Assembly (NCBI GenBank): GCA_944325865.1
Contig: CALVBS010000006.1
Span: 62,001-126,000 of the forward strand
Source of the DNA: Candidatus Gastranaerophilales bacterium
GTDB lineage: Bacteria; Cyanobacteriota; Vampirovibrionia; Gastranaerophilales; Gastranaerophilaceae
Length of the DNA stretch: 64,000 nt
Reading direction: 5' to 3'
Made by a program: the position numbers and the translations under genes. A model generated the notes under the pieces. The model worked only from the letters and a program-made list of their open reading frames with translations, made no database searches and was not told the DNA's origin. Shown here piece after piece: positions 11,622 to 56,168 of this stretch (positions are counted from its first letter, which is position 1; each line of letters starts with the position of its first letter).

Positions 11622-13604
11622 TTATGAACAACCGGAATATCCGCAATTAAGGCATATGAAACATCCTTCTGCCATTTCGATTGTGTTTCCGCATTCAGGG
11701 CAGGTTACTTTTTTAATTTCACCTGTCGGATTGTATTCTTCAGTTTCAGCTTTGATTTCTTCAGCCTTTGGTTCTTCCGATTTATCTTCTGATTTTTTCT
11801 TATCATCAAGATTCATCGGCTGGAACTGACGTGAGTTGTTTCTGTAAACAGTAATACCTTTGAGGTTGTTTTCATAAGCAAGAACATATGCCTCTTCGAT
11901 GTCTTTTCTTGTAGCGTGTTCCTCAAAGTTAACTGTTTTTGATACGGCATTATCCGTATGAAGCTGGAATGCAGCCTGCATTTTTACGTGCCAGTAAGGT
12001 GAAACATCATGTGCGGTTACGAAGATTTTCTTAACTTCTTCAGATACACCGGCAACATGTGCAACAGAACCTGTTTTTGCAATTTCTTTCATTAAACCTT
12101 CGGAATAAAATCCATGTTTTACGGCATAATCTTTGAAGATTGGGTTAATTTCAAGCATTTCGGTTCCATCCATAATCAATCTTGAGAATACAAGACCGAA
12201 TAAAGGTTCAACACCGCCTGATGCACCGGCAATCATTGAAATTGTACCTGTCGGAGCGATACATGTTGTTGTTGCATTTCTGATACCGTATTTTTCAATT
12301 TGAGAATCAAGTTCTTTCCATTGTTCATCGGAGATGATACCTGCGGATTTTCCTTTATATTTGTTATAGAGGAAATTTTTACCGTCATATACACTGCCTT
12401 TGAAGTTGTTAAATCTTCCGCGTTCTTTTGAAAGTTCGATTGATTCGCATTTTGATTCGTAATCAATAAATTCCATAACCTGAGCGGCAAGTTTTGTTCC
12501 TTCTGCCGAAGCATAAGAAATACCCATTTCCATTAGCATATCTGCCCATCCCATAACGCCCAGACCGATTTTTCTGTTGTTTTGAACCATTTCAGAAATC
12601 TGCGGAAGCGGATAGTTATTAACAGCAATTACGTTATCAAGGAATCTGATAGCTGTTCTTGTTGTTTTAGCTAATAATTCCCAGTCAACTTTGCCATCTT
12701 TAACCATTTTGCCAAGGTTAATTGAACCGAGGTTACAAGCTTCATATGCAAGGAGCGGAACTTCACCGCAAGGGTTTGTTGATTCAATTTCACCAACAAG
12801 CGGAGTCGGGTTATCAGAATTCATTTTGTCGATAAAGATAATACCCGGTTCCCCGTTTCTCCAGGCTCCGTCAACAATCATATCAAATACTTTTTTTGCA
12901 CTTAATTTACCTGTAACAGTTCCGTTTTGCGGATTGATAAGTTCGTAATCGGTTCCGTTTTTGTAGGCTTCCATAAACTTATCGGTAATTGCAACCGAGA
13001 TATTAAAGTTGTTTAATTTATTATTATCTGATTTACAGTTAATAAAGTCTAAAATATCCGGATGGTCAACTCTTAAAATACCCATATTGGCACCGCGTCT
13101 TGTTCCGCCCTGTTTAACGGCTTCGGTTGCGGCGTTAAACACTTCCATAAAAGAAACAGGGCCTGAAGATACGCCCATTGTAGAGCGGACAACACTGTTT
13201 TTCGGTCTTAATCTTGAGAAAGAAAAACCTGTTCCGCCGCCTGATTTATGGATTAAAGCGGTATTTTTAACTGTTTCAAAAATACCTTCCAGAGAATCTT
13301 CCACCGGAAGGACAAAGCAAGCTGCAAGCTGCCCGAGTTCTCTGCCGGCATTCATTAATGTCGGTGAATTCGGCATAAAATAGCAATTTGTAATTGCTTC
13401 GTAAAATCTTTCTGTCAATTTATCGACATCTGCCTGAGATTTATTAAATTTTAAATCTCCTTCCGCAATGGTTTTTGCAACACGTCTGAACATATCAGCC
13501 GGTGTTTCAGTACATTTTCCGTCTTTATCGCGTTTCAGGTATCTTTTTTCAAGAACTTTAATTGCGTTTTCGGATAAGTTTAATTTGTCTTCCACTAAGT
13601 TCAC
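11622..13604 (-). CDS. nrdJ: Adenosylcobalamin-dependent (class II) ribonucleoside-diphosphate reductase
   Basis: Reduces ribonucleotides to deoxyribonucleotides with an AdoCbl-generated thiyl radical; it does not need oxygen. Visible motifs are GGGTGFSFSRLRP, STNPCGEVPLLAYEACNLGS (active-site Cys), NRKIGLGVMGWADML, APTGTISMIAGASGGVEPLF and a C-terminal zinc-ribbon with CPECG and CLNCGYSGC, where the last cysteines are the likely thioredoxin-reduced pair. The open frame extends to an ATG at 13697 (691 aa), but that start has no ribosome-binding site, whereas a GTG at 13604 has GGAGG 5 nt upstream. I therefore prefer 660 aa. The pairing with B12-riboswitch-controlled nrdD at 45.6 kb is notable. 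Confidence 0.94.
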   Translation of the reverse strand: MNLVEDKLNLSENAIKVLEKRYLKRDKDGKCTETPADMFRRVAKTIAEGDLKFNKSQADVDKLTERFYEAITNCYFMPNSPTLMNAGRELGQLAACFVLPVEDSLEGIFETVKNTALIHKSGGGTGFSFSRLRPKNSVVRSTMGVSSGPVSFMEVFNAATEAVKQGGTRRGANMGILRVDHPDILDFINCKSDNNKLNNFNISVAITDKFMEAYKNGTDYELINPQNGTVTGKLSAKKVFDMIVDGAWRNGEPGIIFIDKMNSDNPTPLVGEIESTNPCGEVPLLAYEACNLGSINLGKMVKDGKVDWELLAKTTRTAIRFLDNVIAVNNYPLPQISEMVQNNRKIGLGVMGWADMLMEMGISYASAEGTKLAAQVMEFIDYESKCESIELSKERGRFNNFKGSVYDGKNFLYNKYKGKSAGIISDEQWKELDSQIEKYGIRNATTTCIAPTGTISMIAGASGGVEPLFGLVFSRLIMDGTEMLEINPIFKDYAVKHGFYSEGLMKEIAKTGSVAHVAGVSEEVKKIFVTAHDVSPYWHVKMQAAFQLHTDNAVSKTVNFEEHATRKDIEEAYVLAYENNLKGITVYRNNSRQFQPMNLDDKKKSEDKSEEPKAEEIKAETEEYNPTGEIKKVTCPECGNTIEMAEGCFICLNCGYSGCS

Positions 13605-45492: not shown

Positions 45493-45506
45493 AGATTTAC
45501 TATTTT

Positions 45507-45604
45507 GAGGAAAGCATGGGTGAAAATCCCTCACTGGACCGCAGCCGTTACAGTCGGAATGCTCATTATAGTTGATGTTACCACGGAAATCTGGGAGATT
45601 TTTT
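45507..45604 (+). promoter_or_regulatory. Cobalamin riboswitch controlling nrdD
   Basis: The conserved boxes occur in order: GAGGAAA (45507-45513), a GGG-TGAAAAT-CCC hairpin (45518-45530), CACTGGACCGCAGCCGTTA (45532-45550), CAGTCGGAATGCTC (45551-45564). GAG and GCAT of the first box can pair with ATGCTC at the end, closing the core. A small hairpin AAATCT-GGG-AGATTT(TTT) at 45587-45602 holds the GGGAG ribosome-binding site in its loop and arm and ends in T, a plausible off-switch. It resembles the short AdoCbl-riboswitch variants lacking the outer P1/P2 stems. Ligand binding should repress the B12-independent enzyme. It was identified by eye. Confidence 0.8.
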
Positions 45605-47461
45605 ATGAACAATACTATTTTGAAAAACGGCACAAATGTTGTGTCTCTGGAAACTGCAAAAAAAGCTTACGTATCTAATCCTTCAAGCGAAAAAAAAGAA
45701 GACAACATTACTCTTGTTGAAGGTTATTTGAAGCAGCTTGACTGGAAAGTCAATGAAAATTCAAACATGTCCTATTCAATTCAGGGGCTCAACAATTATA
45801 TTGCTTCGGAAGTAAGCAAAAATTACTGGTTAAACAAAATTTATAACGAAAAAATCAGAAATGCTCACATTAGCGGAGATATTCACATCCACGATTTGAA
45901 TATTATATCTGTGTATTGTGTGGGCTGGGATTTGAAAGACTTACTAATGGAAGGTTTTAAAGGCGTCAAGGGTAAAATTGAAAGCAAGCCTCCGAAACAT
46001 TTCAGAACCGCCTTAGGACAAATTGTTAATTTTATGTACACAATGCAGGGCGAAGCTGCAGGGGCTCAGGCATTTTCAAATTTTGATACTCTTCTGGCAC
46101 CTTTCATAAGATATGATAACCTTTCTTTTGAACAGGTAAAACAGGCCATGCAGGAATTTGTATTTAATATGAATGTTCCGACCCGTGTTGGATTTCAAAC
46201 TCCGTTTACTAATATTACAATGGATTTAACTGTCCCTTCGTATTATGCCGAACAACCGGTTATAATCGGCGGTGAACTTATGGAAGATACATATAAAGAA
46301 TTTCAGCCTGAAATGGATTTGTTAAACAAGGCATTCTTTGAGGTTATGATGGAAGGAGATGCTTCTGGCAGGGTCTTTACCTTCCCTATTCCGACATACA
46401 ATATTACAAAGGATTTTGACTGGAATAACGAAAAGCTTAACGGATTATGGGAAATGACTGCAAAATACGGTATCCCTTATTTTTCAAACTTTATAAATTC
46501 TGATATGTCACCTGAAGATGCACGTTCAATGTGCTGCAGATTAAGAATAGATAACCGTGAACTTGAATACAGAGGCGGCGGCTTGTTCGGTTCAAATCCT
46601 CTCACGGGTTCAGTCGGGGTTGTAACTATTAACCTGCCTAAAATTGCTGATAACGTTAAAAATAAAGGCGAATTTTTTGAAAAACTTTCACAACACATGG
46701 AGATAGCTAAAGAAAGCCTTGAAATAAAAAGAAAATTACTTGAAGATTTAACTGATAAAAACCTTTATCCATACACAAAATTTTATTTAAGAGATATAAA
46801 AGCACGTTTCGGTGTTTATTGGAAAAACCATTTTTCAACAATAGGTTTAATAGGTATGAACGAGGCTTGTTTAAATCTTCTCGGTTCGGATATCGGGAGT
46901 TTCAGAGGTAAACAATTTGCACTTGACGTAATGGACTTTATGAGAGCAAAAATTGTTGAATTTCAGAAACAAACAGGTAACAACTACAACCTTGAAGCAA
47001 CTCCCGGGGAAGGAACTTCTTACAGGCTTGCAAAACTTGACAGAAACCATAAATATAAATATTTTACAAATTCAACCCAGCTGCCGGTAAATTATTCCGA
47101 TGATATCTTTGAGGTTCTTGACCATCAGGATGATTTGCAGACAAAATATACCGGCGGAACCGTTGTACATATTTTTGCGGGAGAAAGAATTTCAAATATT
47201 GAAACAATGAAAAATCTTGTTAAAAAAGTCTGCAATAATTACAAACTTCCATATTTCACATTTTCTCCGACCTTTAGTACATGTCCTAATCATGGCTATG
47301 TCGCAGGTGAACATTTTAAATGTCCTGACTGCGGTGCTGATTGTGAAGTTTATTCAAGAATCGTAGGCTACATAAGACCAATTAGTCAGTGGAATAAAGG
47401 TAAACAAATGGAATTTCATAATAGAACACCTTTTGATGTTGAAGCATGCGGATGTAATTAA
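45605..47461 (+). CDS. nrdD: Anaerobic (class III) ribonucleoside-triphosphate reductase
   Basis: Makes dNTPs with a glycyl radical under strict anoxia, without cobalamin. 618 residues. NAHISGDIHIHDLN near residue 82, VGFQTPFTNITMDL, FPIPTYNITKDFDW, and SMCCRLRID (active-site Cys region) are present. The zinc site near the C-terminus has CPNHG and CPDCGADC, followed by the glycyl-radical loop SRIVGYIRPISQWNKGK. The frame opens at 45572, inside the riboswitch, but the ATG at 45605 with GGGAG fits. Controlled by the leader before it; nrdG follows. Confidence 0.96.
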   Translation: MNNTILKNGTNVVSLETAKKAYVSNPSSEKKEDNITLVEGYLKQLDWKVNENSNMSYSIQGLNNYIASEVSKNYWLNKIYNEKIRNAHISGDIHIHDLNIISVYCVGWDLKDLLMEGFKGVKGKIESKPPKHFRTALGQIVNFMYTMQGEAAGAQAFSNFDTLLAPFIRYDNLSFEQVKQAMQEFVFNMNVPTRVGFQTPFTNITMDLTVPSYYAEQPVIIGGELMEDTYKEFQPEMDLLNKAFFEVMMEGDASGRVFTFPIPTYNITKDFDWNNEKLNGLWEMTAKYGIPYFSNFINSDMSPEDARSMCCRLRIDNRELEYRGGGLFGSNPLTGSVGVVTINLPKIADNVKNKGEFFEKLSQHMEIAKESLEIKRKLLEDLTDKNLYPYTKFYLRDIKARFGVYWKNHFSTIGLIGMNEACLNLLGSDIGSFRGKQFALDVMDFMRAKIVEFQKQTGNNYNLEATPGEGTSYRLAKLDRNHKYKYFTNSTQLPVNYSDDIFEVLDHQDDLQTKYTGGTVVHIFAGERISNIETMKNLVKKVCNNYKLPYFTFSPTFSTCPNHGYVAGEHFKCPDCGADCEVYSRIVGYIRPISQWNKGKQMEFHNRTPFDVEACGCN

Positions 47462-50687: not shown

Positions 50688-52160
50688 ATGCTTTTAAATT
50701 TATTTACCCTGAATAATTATAATAATCAGCCGGTATTCGGTTACAGGCTGCCAAAACGCTCATTTAATGACATTCGGGATATACCGGGATTGACCTGTGC
50801 TAAGTGCGGGGAAAAAATGTTTAGCCTTATAGAACGTGATGAGTTTATTAATAAATTACTTGCAGGTTCAAAAACTTGTTTGAAAAACCATGAATTTGAT
50901 GAATTTAGAAATTCCAACAGATTTCGTTTTCTGCAAAACTTGGCAAACAGACATCCAAGAACTCCACTGGCAGTAATTGTTGAAGATAAGACTATTAAAT
51001 ATAAAATATCAAAATTTGGCGGATTTGGTCAGAGAGAAGTTTCTGAAATTGTTGATATTTCAAAAAATATTACAAAAAATGCCCCGCAGGTTATAAAAAA
51101 ATTAATGCCTCTTAAAGAGAGGATGCCTGATGCTTACAAAGAACTTCTGGATTATATGGAGGTTTATGCTATAAAATACCCTGATAACTCATTTTCAGAA
51201 ATTTTTAAAAAGAAAGATGTCTTTGATTATCATAATAAAATTCGTTTATTCAGAAAAGAACAATTTTCGCTGCTGAAAAATAAAGCTTTAACAAAGCTCA
51301 ATAAAACAGCAGAACTTCTTCCGCAAGAGGAAAAAGCAAAGATGATTAAATTGAACTCGGAGCTTTTGAATATCATCTCGCCGACATATTATCCGGATTC
51401 TACAAAACATATTATGCTTGAACTTTTATATGGGGACTTTATTTCGGCTCTTGATGATAAAAAACTTGCTGCTAACATCAAAAAACAACTCAAGAATATA
51501 CCGCTTAATGAAGTTCATGCCGATAATTTGATAGTAGGATATTCAAAATTAAACGACAGAGAAATTATTAAAGAGATTTTGGAAAATGTAAGTGCAACTT
51601 TTGAACATATAATTCCAGGCTCAAAAGACGGTCCTGATTCCAAGCATAACGGTATTTGTCTATGTAAAAGATGCAATCAGGAGCGTGCAACCATTGCTTA
51701 TTCAGTTATGATGGAAAAATTCCCTGAATTTTCACAAAATATACAGAAACAACTTAATAAAGTAATGGCATTTATTAAAAATAAAAAACTTACAGGATAT
51801 GAATTGTATCCGCAAAAAGTTAAGAAGACATTATTGGATGTTACAGACCAAAAATTAAGAATTAATATAAAGAAATTTTTGAAATTTAAAGAAAAAGAAG
51901 CAGAGATAAAACTTGAGCATGCAAAAGCAAGTTATATTCAAAACAAAACCCGTTTACAGGAAACAAATTTGGAAATAAGTGAATATAATAAGAAAATAGA
52001 TGAGTTAAAACAGGAATTGAAAAGGTTACAGGACGAAAAAAACATCCTTCATCATAAAAAAGAAATACGTAAAGCAAAGGTTAATAATTCAACGCGGATA
52101 CTGGCTAATGCCAAAAGTAATTTAAAAAGTGCAAGAAAGACATTAAATAATGATAAATAA
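50688..52160 (+). CDS. HNH-nuclease-like protein with a split zinc motif, 490 aa
   Basis: The N-terminus has QPVFGYRLPKR, then a CAKCGEKMF pair (residues about 37-45). About 280 helical residues later come FEHIIPGS and SKHNGICLCKRCNQERAT, which together look like an HNH endonuclease beta-beta-alpha-metal core (EH, HN, CxxC). The C-terminal 80 residues are a lysine/glutamate coiled coil. If the pairs form one zinc site, the core is interrupted by a large insert. It could act on DNA or RNA; no phage or restriction partner is next to it. No ribosome-binding site is visible at the ATG. Confidence 0.65.
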   Translation: MLLNLFTLNNYNNQPVFGYRLPKRSFNDIRDIPGLTCAKCGEKMFSLIERDEFINKLLAGSKTCLKNHEFDEFRNSNRFRFLQNLANRHPRTPLAVIVEDKTIKYKISKFGGFGQREVSEIVDISKNITKNAPQVIKKLMPLKERMPDAYKELLDYMEVYAIKYPDNSFSEIFKKKDVFDYHNKIRLFRKEQFSLLKNKALTKLNKTAELLPQEEKAKMIKLNSELLNIISPTYYPDSTKHIMLELLYGDFISALDDKKLAANIKKQLKNIPLNEVHADNLIVGYSKLNDREIIKEILENVSATFEHIIPGSKDGPDSKHNGICLCKRCNQERATIAYSVMMEKFPEFSQNIQKQLNKVMAFIKNKKLTGYELYPQKVKKTLLDVTDQKLRINIKKFLKFKEKEAEIKLEHAKASYIQNKTRLQETNLEISEYNKKIDELKQELKRLQDEKNILHHKKEIRKAKVNNSTRILANAKSNLKSARKTLNNDK

Positions 52161-52172
52161 ATTAACATAGGT

Positions 52173-52201
52173 TTGACATGTGTTTACGGTTATTTTAGGA
52201 T
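52173..52201 (+). promoter_or_regulatory. Promoter of the 52-55 kb operon
   Basis: TTGACA (52173-52178), 17-bp spacer, TAGGAT (52196-52201). Placed directly ahead of the riboswitch-like leader, as at nrdD. Confidence 0.65.
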
Positions 52202-52210
52202 TTTTTATAA

Positions 52211-52354
52211 GAGGAAATTGATGTGTAAATCATTAGCTGTGCCGCAACCGTAATAGCCGGAACACTCAGAAAAACTTATCTGCCGCGAGCATCGGCAATA
52301 AGAAAAGTTTTCAAAGTTGTCCTCTGAGAGTTAAGAACAGCAGAGGATTTTTTA
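52211..52354 (+). promoter_or_regulatory. Cobalamin-riboswitch-like leader of an unknown operon
   Basis: Same box order as the nrdD leader: GAGGAAA (52211-52217), a TGAT-GTGTAA-ATCA hairpin, AGCTGTGCCGCAACCGTAAT (52235-52254), AGCCGGAACACTC (52255-52267), with GAG/CTC closing the core. A hairpin at 52275-52302 (CTTAT, TGCCG / CGGCA, ATAAG; loop CGAGCAT) stands where the L13 kissing-loop arm is expected. TCCTCTG (52320-52326) pairs with CAGAGGA (52341-52347), followed by six T; this hairpin covers the ribosome-binding site AGAGGA and ends at the start codon, a clear expression platform. Identification is by eye. Confidence 0.75.
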
Positions 52355-53056
52355 ATGGCATATGGAGCCGTACATGCAAATAATGCAAGAATAGGAACCT
52401 GTCCGCATGGACTTCCGCAGGGAGCATGCCCTATTTGTAGCGGAATGGGCGGCGGAGGCGGTATGAGAAAAGCCGATTTTTCCGCAAAACCGGGTGAAAT
52501 GAGCTGGAATGAGTGTGCTGCCATAGGAGCATTCCTAAAAGCACAACAGAATGCAAAACTTCAGCGTCAGCAGGATGCACAGAATTTTGCACAGCAGGCT
52601 GTGGCGTTTCAAAATGCCATGGATAACGCTTCACAAAAAGCTGCCGCACTTGCACAGTTTTTCAGTGCAAACACTCCCGCTATAATTGCAAAACCAGTAA
52701 ATTTTGTTCTGAATACCGTAATCGGCGGTACTTTGAATGCTATAAAAAGTTTTCCGCAAACCGTTCAAAACGCATTACAAACAGTTGGACAAAAATTAGC
52801 GGACATTTCTGATAAGCTTGCAGCAGTTTACGGTGAAGTTAAAACAGCAATAGCCAAAAAACTCTCAGAAACTTTAAATGAATTTAAAAAGAAAGTGAAA
52901 TCATTGTTTTCTATCTTTAATCCGCAGGATGCAGATAACGATGACAAACAGGTTGATGAAACCAAAAAAGCTTTTAAACTGAAAACATTTATACATGATT
53001 TATATAAGAAATTAAAAAAGGAAGACGAAAAGGATTTAGAAGAAAATGAACGTTAA
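52355..53056 (+). CDS. Hypothetical protein with CPHG/CPIC cysteine-histidine cluster, 233 aa
   Basis: Unknown. The N-terminus has C16-P-H18-G, then C25-P-I-C28 followed by a glycine run, a possible metal-binding knuckle. Then a glutamine/alanine-rich helix (about 60-105, LQRQQDAQNFAQQAVAF), a hydrophobic or amphipathic central part (110-160) and a lysine-rich coiled-coil tail. There is no signal peptide. The AGAGGA ribosome-binding site lies inside the riboswitch hairpin. It is the first gene of an operon; the next gene overlaps by 11 bp. Control by a cobalamin leader suggests a link to B12 or cobalt, but nothing in the protein proves this. Confidence 0.7.
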   Translation: MAYGAVHANNARIGTCPHGLPQGACPICSGMGGGGGMRKADFSAKPGEMSWNECAAIGAFLKAQQNAKLQRQQDAQNFAQQAVAFQNAMDNASQKAAALAQFFSANTPAIIAKPVNFVLNTVIGGTLNAIKSFPQTVQNALQTVGQKLADISDKLAAVYGEVKTAIAKKLSETLNEFKKKVKSLFSIFNPQDADNDDKQVDETKKAFKLKTFIHDLYKKLKKEDEKDLEENER

Positions 53057-54509
53057 TCAGTTCCATGACGGTGAAACGTTAAGACAGCAGCGAAATCTTA
53101 CCGCACCGCAGAAAAGAACAAATGCATATACAAAAGAAGGCGTTGTTGTAAATAATTTCATAAAGGACGGAAAAAACAGCGTTAATATGGATGAAATGTA
53201 TGATACGCTTGTTATTTCCGATAATGTTAAAATGCCTTCTTATCTTAATGAAAATATAAGTTCAAAAGAAAAAAGTCTGATACCGATAAGCGGAGTTGCT
53301 GTTGGTGTAATGGGAGCGGTAGGATTGCTGACTGCTTTTATCCGGAAAAATGCCGGTGTTAATATGGAAATTGAACGCAAACATCTTGAAAAACTGCCTT
53401 CAACTACAAGAAATGTTGCGATTAATCAGGAAACCCATCAGGCAATTTACAGAATGATAAGAAACCCTACCCGAAAAACAATTCTTGCCGGAAGCGGTGT
53501 ACTAGCCCTTACTTCTATGGCGTTTATGGGAAAAACTTTTTTTGACGGGTTTAAAGAAGTCTGGGTAAAGAAAAAAGAAGCCGATATTCAAAAAAATCTT
53601 CAGGAAAATCTGATTGATATTGAAACACGCTCGTTCAGCGGAAAAATTCAGATTATAAGGAGTATGCTATCCCAAAGAGCAAAAGAGTTTGAAAAATATG
53701 TTTCCGGCAGCAATAATATCAAAACCTTTGCCGGTATATCCTTTGGTGAAGGGAAATTTTCTAAAGATAAAAAAGACGGTTCTTTGAAATATTTCCTTCT
53801 CGGTGCAGGAACTGTTGCATCAATTATCGGACTCGGGTTCTGGTCTATGAAAAACCTGAACGCCGGCAAAAAATATCTTGATCAGAGTATTAAAAATAAA
53901 AAGAATATTATAAATGAAATTATAAAGACTTCAAAAGATTCTTCAAAAGATGCTGACAAAATGACTCTGAAAACTCTGTTTAACGAAATTGATGCCTCAA
54001 AAGAATATATACAGGATTCTTTGCAGAAGCTCAACTGGAAACATGAAGAAATAGAAGATTTTACAAAAGAAGTCTTTAAAGCAACCGCAAAAGTCAATGA
54101 AGCAATGGGCGGCGACGGCTCTGACAAAACGACTTTCTATTCACATGTTGATGATTACAGGGCTCACCTTTTTAATTATCTGCTTAATACGGATAACAAA
54201 CAGTTCAAGCAGTTGTTTTTCGGTATAACAGGGCTTACTGCAATAAGTTACGGAGGTAAGCTTGCAGGAGAGGCAATTAAAGAAGTTCAGGTTAAGAAAA
54301 TTAATGCAGAAACTGAGATTAACCTGCAAAATCGCCTTGTTTCAACAGAGCTCAGAAACTTCAAATCGAAAAAAGATGCTGCTATTCAACCTCTTGTTGA
54401 AGAATTTTACCGTCAGGCTGCAAACGGAAAACCTAAAGAAGAATTGAAGGTTATGGCAGATAATATATTATTTGAAATTAAAAACGGTCCTCCGTTTGTT
54501 TATTCATAA
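53046..54509 (+). CDS. Multi-pass membrane protein with internal duplication, 487 aa
   Basis: Unknown. Hydrophobic segments lie at about 78-98, 145-162, 245-268 and 385-405. Residues 162-200 and 404-442 are repeats: both have KEV-x-VKK, an A-[DE] pair, N-L-Q, and E-x-R-[SN]-F-x-x-K. Each repeat follows a membrane segment, so the protein looks like two copies of a helix-plus-charged-arm unit separated by a soluble middle (270-370) with lysine-rich coiled coil. It overlaps the gene before it by 11 bp, and the next gene starts 19 bp later. Not recognisable as a known transporter. Confidence 0.7.
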   Translation: MNVNQFHDGETLRQQRNLTAPQKRTNAYTKEGVVVNNFIKDGKNSVNMDEMYDTLVISDNVKMPSYLNENISSKEKSLIPISGVAVGVMGAVGLLTAFIRKNAGVNMEIERKHLEKLPSTTRNVAINQETHQAIYRMIRNPTRKTILAGSGVLALTSMAFMGKTFFDGFKEVWVKKKEADIQKNLQENLIDIETRSFSGKIQIIRSMLSQRAKEFEKYVSGSNNIKTFAGISFGEGKFSKDKKDGSLKYFLLGAGTVASIIGLGFWSMKNLNAGKKYLDQSIKNKKNIINEIIKTSKDSSKDADKMTLKTLFNEIDASKEYIQDSLQKLNWKHEEIEDFTKEVFKATAKVNEAMGGDGSDKTTFYSHVDDYRAHLFNYLLNTDNKQFKQLFFGITGLTAISYGGKLAGEAIKEVQVKKINAETEINLQNRLVSTELRNFKSKKDAAIQPLVEEFYRQAANGKPKEELKVMADNILFEIKNGPPFVYS

Positions 54510-54528
54510 AGGTATGGAGGAGGAATAT

Positions 54529-55044
54529 ATGCCGATTAATCTTATGTTACAGCCTCTGGTGCAGTTAAATAGCCAGCCATCTCAACTTAATTCAAATCTT
54601 CAGCCGATTAACGGTATGAATGTAAATTGTGTGGCTATGCCGGTTTCGCAAAGAAACTACTGCCTTTTTAATCAAACTAAGGTAGATTTTTTTGTAAAAC
54701 AGAAAGAGGCCGGGCTTCCATATCTTAAGGAGGTTCTCAAACATTCAAATAATGAGGCTCAAATAACCGAAACTTTATATATATTAAACAGAATGCAGGA
54801 TAGCGGAACTAAAGGTATAGACAAAATGTACCCATTACTGTCACGTTTTAACGGTACAAATTCTCCGAATATACAGACATTTTTGGCAGGAATATACAGG
54901 AAAATACAGGTTCCTGATGCCTTTGGCCCGCTTGTTGCCATGTTAATCCGAAATTCTATAAAACCGCCGCAGGCATGTTTTGATCCGAATGAAGAAGTTG
55001 GAGGAGCAATACTTGCTTACCTTTCAGACCGTTTTAGAAATTAG
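54529..55044 (+). CDS. Hypothetical helical-repeat protein, 171 aa
   Basis: Unknown. A low-complexity Q/N/L N-terminus (about 1-35) is followed by paired helices that read like HEAT-type repeats (VDFFVKQKEAGLPYLKEVLK, QITETLYILNRMQDSG, NIQTFLAGIYRKIQ, AFGPLVAMLIRNS). The open frame extends upstream into the preceding gene, but the ATG at 54529 has GGAGGAGG at the right distance. Third gene of the cobalamin-leader operon, 19 bp after the second; probably a soluble partner. Confidence 0.7.
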   Translation: MPINLMLQPLVQLNSQPSQLNSNLQPINGMNVNCVAMPVSQRNYCLFNQTKVDFFVKQKEAGLPYLKEVLKHSNNEAQITETLYILNRMQDSGTKGIDKMYPLLSRFNGTNSPNIQTFLAGIYRKIQVPDAFGPLVAMLIRNSIKPPQACFDPNEEVGGAILAYLSDRFRN

Positions 55045-55160: not shown

Positions 55161-56168
55161 ATGGGAATGTCCGCTTCACAAGCTAGATTTTTGGGTCTGA
55201 CGGCTCGAAAAACTAACGTTGAATATGAAGGACAGCAGGTTAACCAGCAGCGTACCTCGTTAGCTAATGAATCTGCCAACTTCTACAACGACCTTCTCGG
55301 CATGACCGTTCCGGTTCCTCCGTCAGTTGATGATTATACCAAAACAGTTTATACGTTTGAAGATGGTGCTTTGACTAATGAAATTACTTCATTAATTGCA
55401 CAGGCAGACGGTTTCTACACTGTAAGTTATCTGTCAAAATGGCAGGAAGATTTTACGCCTGTTGCAGCTGCATCTACAATTATTACAGAAATTAATAATG
55501 GTGCAAGTTATGCTGTTGGTACCCATGAGTTAAGAGTATTGGGTTCACTGGATCCTTCAATAGAAGATCCTGAAGACCAGCAGAAAAAACAGGTTGAAGA
55601 GCTTGCTTGGAAGGCACTTCTTGAAGAAAAATATAATAACGGTGAAGAATGTGACTGGTTTGTAAGATACGTTACGAATACAGAAACCGGTAAGGAAACA
55701 CCTTTCTTCTACAAGGTTACTGATGTTCAAAATGCTGAATATGATGATAAAACAGGTCAGTCCTTGTCAAATATTAACGGCTACAGTATCGGTAGTGCCC
55801 AGAGAGTAGAAGAGTTTAAAGCAATTCAGGGCTGCAAAGTTGAGAAAGATACATCCGGCAGATTTATTTCAATCAGTATTCCTGATGCAAACGGCGTTAT
55901 GATTGAGTATCCTTTGACAACAAATACAGAAACCGATCAGGAAGCTTATCAGGATGCTATGAACGAATATGAACACGAAAAATATCTTTACGATCAGGCA
56001 ATTCAGGATATTAACGCAAAAATTGAAATCGTTCAGGCAGAAGATAAAAACCTTGAATTACGTTTGAAACAGTTAGATACAGAACAGGATGCAATTCAAA
56101 CAGAAATGGATGCGGTACAAAAAGTTATTGAAAAGAACGTAGAATCAACATTTAAAACTTTCGGATAA
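55161..56168 (+). CDS. SASQAR-family protein, 335 aa, unknown function
   Basis: Starts MGMSASQARFLGLTARKTN, continuing VEYEGQQVNQQRTSLANES, a coiled-coil-prone N-terminus. A variable middle (80-250) carries no known motif. The C-terminal coiled coil (EKYLYDQAIQDINAKIEIVQ) ends LDTEQDAIQTEMD then EKNVESTFKTFG. It is a paralogue of the 566-aa protein at 37301 at both ends. No signal peptide; the terminal coiled coils suggest a polymerising or bundle-forming structural protein. A terminator follows 118 bp later. Confidence 0.75.
   Translation: MGMSASQARFLGLTARKTNVEYEGQQVNQQRTSLANESANFYNDLLGMTVPVPPSVDDYTKTVYTFEDGALTNEITSLIAQADGFYTVSYLSKWQEDFTPVAAASTIITEINNGASYAVGTHELRVLGSLDPSIEDPEDQQKKQVEELAWKALLEEKYNNGEECDWFVRYVTNTETGKETPFFYKVTDVQNAEYDDKTGQSLSNINGYSIGSAQRVEEFKAIQGCKVEKDTSGRFISISIPDANGVMIEYPLTTNTETDQEAYQDAMNEYEHEKYLYDQAIQDINAKIEIVQAEDKNLELRLKQLDTEQDAIQTEMDAVQKVIEKNVESTFKTFG

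Follow-up and report, generated by a model that had tools for sequence, protein, structure and literature searches.

We report a new target operon of an already known riboswitch class. In the window (the whole 64,000-nucleotide stretch that we analyzed), an AdoCbl-II (class II cobalamin) riboswitch lies ahead of three genes, P1, P2 and P3, that encode orphan proteins. These genes are almost certainly under cobalamin control, and very probably they are part of the cell's management of vitamin B12. Cobalamin riboswitches usually mark genes of B12 transport, synthesis or substitution. The features of the leader and the operon are:

52173-52201, plus strand: sigma-70-like promoter, TTGACA-17 nt-TAGGAT (consensus scan, 10/12 matches)
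52201-52273, plus strand: AdoCbl-II riboswitch aptamer (RF01689), with its conserved core at 52209-52267
52281-52297, plus strand: L13-type hairpin (covariation in 68 leaders)
52320-52353, plus strand: expression platform with anti-SD TCCTCTG, SD CAGAGGA and T6 (fold and duplex energies)
52355-53056, plus strand: P1, an orphan protein of 233 aa with a CPHG-x5-CPIC motif, then long amphipathic helices
53046-54509, plus strand: P2, an orphan membrane protein of 487 aa with two homologous halves (profile comparison; low-confidence model)
54529-55044, plus strand: P3, a helical protein of 171 aa with an ARM/HEAT-like pattern, often but not always present

The source genome comprises 2.03 Mb in 14 contigs, and the nearest relatives of the window are MAGs of the Gastranaerophilales type, from Candidatus Scatousia and its allies, which are non-photosynthetic relatives of cyanobacteria. 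In the set of papers that we searched, none mentions Gastranaerophilales together with a riboswitch. The first melainabacterial genome paper lists pathways for vitamins B2, B3, B5, B7, B9 and K, and the words B12 and cobalamin are absent from its main text (PMC3787301).

The sequence-only reading of this DNA had described the leader as resembling a cobalamin riboswitch, with a consensus promoter just ahead of it and a hairpin plus T6 covering the ribosome-binding site, and all three descriptions hold. RF01689 matches 52201-52273 (+) with 49.4 bits (E 5.7e-9), which is above the gathering score of 36.5 bits, and this is the single over-threshold match in an Rfam scan of the whole window. Covariation in P4 is seen across 60 distinct aptamer cores (T-A/C-G, A-T/G-C/G-T and A-T/T-A/G-C are examples), and a further pair between core columns 28 and 50 also covaries (G-C/A-T/G-T). 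None of 2000 shuffles reaches the 28-50 pair or three of the five P4 pairs, and a fourth P4 pair lies above all but 2. The loop of the L13-type hairpin (GCAT, 52289-52292) pairs with GTGC at 52239-52242 to form a kissing loop. We parsed 75 operon leaders, 74 of them from GTDB contigs and one from the window itself. The kissing loop has two variable bases, and across 68 leaders these are paired in 124 of 136 cells, versus a mean of 69 for shuffles that ignore kinship, and 0 of 5000 shuffles reach the observed value. The leader thus shares with the RF01689 class its core sequence, P3, P4 and P6, an L5-L13-type kissing loop, and an SD-sequestering OFF platform. It differs in its target, as the main target of the class in the order Gastranaerophilales is a set of orphan genes. 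The ligand of 52201-52273 would be AdoCbl or a related corrinoid.

Downstream of the aptamer, TCCTCTG (52320-52326) and CAGAGGA (52341-52347) form a hairpin that is followed by T6-A-ATG. The Shine-Dalgarno sequence AGAGGA is buried inside this hairpin, 7 nt 5' of the ATG of P1 at 52355, and in 69 of 72 relatives the local fold leaves none of its bases unpaired, as expected of the expression platform of a riboswitch. The anti-SD can alternatively pair with the 5' strand of the aptamer (AAGAGGA, 52209-52215), with a median energy of -9.0 kcal/mol as compared to -1.2 in control windows. A terminator scan of the window left the hairpin unlisted; its loop exceeds the length that the scan permits. 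Some relatives keep the SD and anti-SD hairpin without a T run, so translational control is the common denominator, and it is better supported than a transcription terminator.

We propose the following mechanism. AdoCbl (or a related corrinoid) would fold the aptamer and tie up AAGAGGA; with this strand occupied, the anti-SD TCCTCT would be free to pair with the SD of P1, and P1-P2-P3 would be off. Without the ligand, the anti-SD would sit on the 5' strand of the aptamer, which would leave the SD open and the operon on. The pairings of this OFF switch are backed by sequence complementarity and by covariation, and we infer ligand binding and switching from them.

To describe how widespread the operon is, we use a first panel of 59 genomes and a second set of 209 members of the order, each at least 95% complete. 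P2 is present in 48 of the 59 panel genomes and in 195 of the 209 near-complete genomes. The pairing of leader and operon recurs in these relatives: a cobalamin riboswitch lies ahead of 47 of the 48 panel operons. (Covariance models place 44 of these directly upstream, one is split over two contigs in G055, and two were recognized by eye. The latter are aptamers with an internal insertion, in the P6 loop in G004, which has a weak match of 24.7 bits, and in the P4 loop in G040.) Only the operon of G053 (1 of 48) has no recognisable cobalamin leader. With the Rfam match, the strong covariation and this single exception, neither of the outcomes that would have refuted the sequence-only reading came about. 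We discarded the idea that the leader is missing in G004, G037, G040, G043 and G056, where a second search gave class I riboswitches or aptamers with insertions. Insertions are located at L124 and L125 (just 5' of P1), L064 (7570-7660) and L165 (5' of 4406). In this group the insertion is in the P6 loop (about 50 nt), the P4 loop (about 30 nt), or the gap between the anti-SD and the SD (about 110 nt), and insertions inside the aptamer mask or lower the match to the Rfam model. At four loci with other taxonomic labels (L149, L161, L169 and L184; labels Fusobacterium, Alphaproteobacteria and Heliobacteriaceae), the operon is 55-61% identical to the window's, and these are probably mislabelled or misbinned MAGs.

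In one family (G037, G043, G047, G052, G056 and G057), the operon is under a class I cobalamin riboswitch instead (RF00174, 39.5-51.6 bits). Class I riboswitches (RF00174) lie ahead of the operon at these positions:

L065, 11108-11279
L066, 8913-9083
L067, 11213-11372
L073, 7715-7872
L074, 11489-11630
L076, 5694-5829

Thus, six genomes of a sister family have this operon under RF00174, which is absent from the window and whose aptamer architecture differs from that of AdoCbl-II. The presence of two structurally different cobalamin aptamers on the same operon argues for cobalamin itself as the relevant signal: what is conserved across the change of riboswitch class is the ligand, not the RNA.

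These comparisons also bear on whether the leader is no riboswitch at all, or lies ahead of the operon by accident. The single-sequence fold of the window's leader is unremarkable (z -0.5), as it would be under a chance resemblance. We read this value as the customary limit of single-sequence folds for a pseudoknotted aptamer, and our case rests on comparison. The E-value of the RF01689 match, the covariation, the position kept in 47 of 48 operons and the change of class all speak against chance, to which we give almost no credence.

The operon is not kept whole everywhere. Among the 12 P2-negative genomes of the same family in the set of 209, nine are without a riboswitch and without a full NrdJ (the AdoCbl-dependent class II ribonucleotide reductase), and all nine are without BtuC. 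G115 and G197 have the riboswitch, NrdJ, P1 and two P3-like genes, and P2 is missing. G120 has NrdJ only; neither P2 nor a riboswitch was detected. P3 is absent from several lineages. Because G115 and G197 keep the riboswitch and P1 without P2, and because P3 is sometimes lost, we view P1 as the constant target of the riboswitch, and P2 and P3 as its variable partners. At L205 and L206, the riboswitch operon consists of P1 and two P3-like genes without P2, and the second P3-like proteins have N-terminal extensions.

What are these proteins? The sequence-only reading saw a C/H cluster in the first protein, an internally duplicated multi-pass membrane protein and a helical protein, none of them a known B12 transporter, biosynthesis enzyme or isozyme. 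We agree on each point. No match of P1, P2 or P3 to Pfam, NCBIfam, PHROGs or the PDB sequences was accepted; weak database matches, mostly to coiled coils, were dismissed as family assignments. Structure prediction gave poor models. In particular, P1-P3 have no Pfam match to the parts of a BtuBCDF-type importer (TonB receptor, FecCD permease, ABC ATPase or periplasmic binding protein), and no enzyme family of Pfam or NCBIfam is over the cut-off, although a B12-independent isozyme would be expected to belong to one with a B12-dependent counterpart.

P1 has a CPHG...CP-x-C motif (zinc-ribbon-like C-x-H...C-x-x-C ligands), which is kept in 28 of 28 panel homologues and in 77 of 78 homologues from GTDB; the sole exception is truncated. 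P1 also has a glycine-rich linker and the long amphipathic helices, and Cys54 is not kept in the most distant family. The AlphaFold model of P1 (mean pLDDT 50.4) is too poor for use. Two members matched Cob_adeno_trans at 0.018, which we dismissed as a chance match between helical proteins. We rejected a phage origin: tblastn against phage records gave no match to P1 or to P2, and no P1 was found in viral contigs.

The two halves of P2 match each other in a profile-profile comparison (probability 97.2, E 3.8e-11; reversed control 3.9). We read each half as a TM hairpin that continues as a long helix, and hydropathy by itself backs three of the four TM segments. The protein ends in EIKNGPPFVYS. 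Its AlphaFold model (mean pLDDT 59.6) is also too poor for use, and a Foldseek search with this low-confidence model gave nothing under E 0.2. The best-ranked structures are helical pore formers, which we regard as generic long-helix matches. P3 looks helical with an ARM-like pattern of low certainty: its profile matches designed armadillo repeats over the whole sequence (2.8e-7), but no individual segment passes by itself, and the Pfam repeat families all stay below the cut-off.

Other orphan proteins are found nearby. The window encodes one at 55161-56168 (MGMSASQARFLGLTARK...), whose family is often located after the operon with a gap, and a similar N-terminus is seen in proteins encoded at other places in related genomes. 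A short N-terminal motif of the type PVFGYR / PAFSGK / FAFKSA, possibly a targeting signal, recurs in otherwise unrelated orphan proteins:

window, 50688-52160
L203, 801-1163
L206, 1-576

The company that the operon keeps is that of B12 metabolism. In the order, the other targets of RF01689 are nrdDG, metE, CobT, class I RNR, and OprB plus CbiM, as well as an operon of TonB receptor, FecCD, ABC and periplasmic binding protein (btuB-btuCDF) in several relatives. An unusual target is found in G155 (L209, 7803-9280), where an AdoCbl-II riboswitch precedes a B12-binding radical SAM protein. The window itself contains three further features that are related to B12:

45494-45572, plus strand: second AdoCbl-II riboswitch, ahead of nrdDG (31.8 bits, below the gathering score; E 1.3e-5 in a local search)
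45605-47461, plus strand: NrdD, the B12-independent anaerobic ribonucleotide reductase (TIGR02487, E 9e-175)
11817-13562, minus strand: NrdJ, the AdoCbl-dependent class II ribonucleotide reductase (TIGR02504, E 6.6e-225; also Pfam)

Together, the riboswitch at 45494-45572 and NrdJ likely allow B12 to govern the choice between class II and class III ribonucleotide reductases. There is an alternative explanation for P1-P3: they might do a job that is done better by a cobalamin-dependent process, and be repressed in the presence of AdoCbl, like nrdDG and metE. The B12-independent NrdDG and MetE are indeed under the same riboswitch family in these genomes. However, P1-P3 show no enzymatic family or catalytic signature, and no candidate for the B12-dependent partner was found. 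The behavior of the two riboswitches also argues against it. A riboswitch was found in all 41 P2-positive genomes that we sampled. In the 15 that lack a full NrdJ there is exactly one, located ahead of P1 wherever coordinates are listed; of the 26 with NrdJ, 15 have at least two (Fisher p 1.4e-4; this per-genome scan used stricter filters and lost some weak sites). When NrdJ is lost, the second riboswitch is no longer found, as the isozyme logic predicts for nrdD, and the riboswitch of the P1 operon stays, so control of the operon is independent of the isozyme swap. Overall, we consider a B12-sparing role unlikely.

The sequence-only reading had left open corrinoid uptake, cobalt handling and B12 sparing. 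The link to B12 is upheld by the regulon and by the change of riboswitch class, and our data lean towards uptake or handling. Judging solely from regulation and distribution, we see an even chance that the operon is a feedback-repressed system for the acquisition or handling of corrinoids. The product would be a membrane-associated system that acquires, retains or traffics corrinoids and is made when cellular AdoCbl is low. P1 could be a metal- or corrinoid-handling adaptor, P2 the membrane component, and P3 an ARM-like partner.

We favor corrinoid acquisition or handling because of the company in the regulon, the lack of BtuC despite NrdJ and BtuR, and the joint absence of the operon with NrdJ. 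FecCD (the family of the BtuC permease) is present in 15 of the 209 genomes and absent from 194, including the window's. Most genomes of the order, again including the window's, contain NrdJ, and the adenosyltransferase BtuR/CobA is widespread, usually in two copies; no PduO-type adenosyltransferase is over the cut-off. (The survey covered FecCD, NrdJ, BtuR/CobA and PduO.) As BtuC is mostly absent while NrdJ and BtuR/CobA are widespread, corrinoids would enter these cells without the usual permease.

Several relatives have the BtuB-BtuCDF import operon under the same riboswitch, and we propose corrinoid acquisition as the common theme, but none of P1-P3 is a TonB receptor, a permease, an ATPase or a binding protein. 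In Bacteroides, BtuG and BtuH are described as lineage-specific B12-uptake proteins, once of unknown function, that capture or bind B12 (PMC6143338, PMC8941943). BtuG is described there as a surface lipoprotein that partners BtuB, whereas no relationship of P1-P3 to known families could be detected. The case for acquisition is weakened because the proteins do not look like transporters: there is no ATPase, no receptor and no confident fold. Also counting against acquisition are G115 and G197, which do without P2; the losses of P3; and G120, which has NrdJ without P2 or the riboswitch. ECF transporters or de novo synthesis might supply the cells instead, which weakens the case further. Finally, all 13 genomes with a strong FecCD match in the set of 209 retain P2, which means that BtuBCDF and the operon do not simply replace each other, and mutual exclusion with BtuC is ruled out as proof of uptake.

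The operon is near-universal (195/209) even where NrdJ and BtuR are missing, and this would also fit a role in which AdoCbl is an environmental or physiological cue. The operon would then build a scaffold, or a structure of the envelope, that has nothing to do with the chemistry of B12 and be off when corrinoids are plentiful. P1 and P2 do resemble long-helix, membrane-associated structural proteins more than enzymes. There is a precedent in Mycobacterium tuberculosis, whose ppe2, a gene without a certain function, lies behind a translational OFF switch that responds to B12, although the ppe2 operon also carries cobQ and cobU and its protein family differs from those of P1-P3 (PMC11260477). 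But every other annotated target in the order belongs to B12 metabolism, and cobalamin control of the operon survived a change of riboswitch class, so we think that a role as a mere cue is improbable.

The putative C-x-H...C-x-x-C site of P1 suggests yet another function, the handling of a metal (cobalt or zinc). The motif, with its four ligands, does not vary within the order, and one relative has the cobalt transporter CbiM under the same riboswitch. The motif is also typical of structural zinc sites, however, and the operon is present in genomes without BtuR or NrdJ, where a demand of cobalt for B12 is doubtful. We consider metal handling centred on P1 to be very unlikely.

Returning to corrinoid acquisition or handling, we tentatively suggest a stronger version, which is possible but on balance doubtful: P1-P2-P3 may be an unrecognised system for the acquisition or intracellular handling of corrinoids, and the principal one in this order, most members of which have no BtuC; P1 would then be the founder of a new family of corrinoid- or metal-handling proteins. 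What we have is a near-universal operon of three orphan families, marked by a cobalamin riboswitch, in a gut order that uses NrdJ mostly without the standard permease. The change of riboswitch class on this operon is a useful natural experiment in riboswitch replacement, and the operon makes the question of how Gastranaerophilales are supplied with B12 and how they handle it directly testable.
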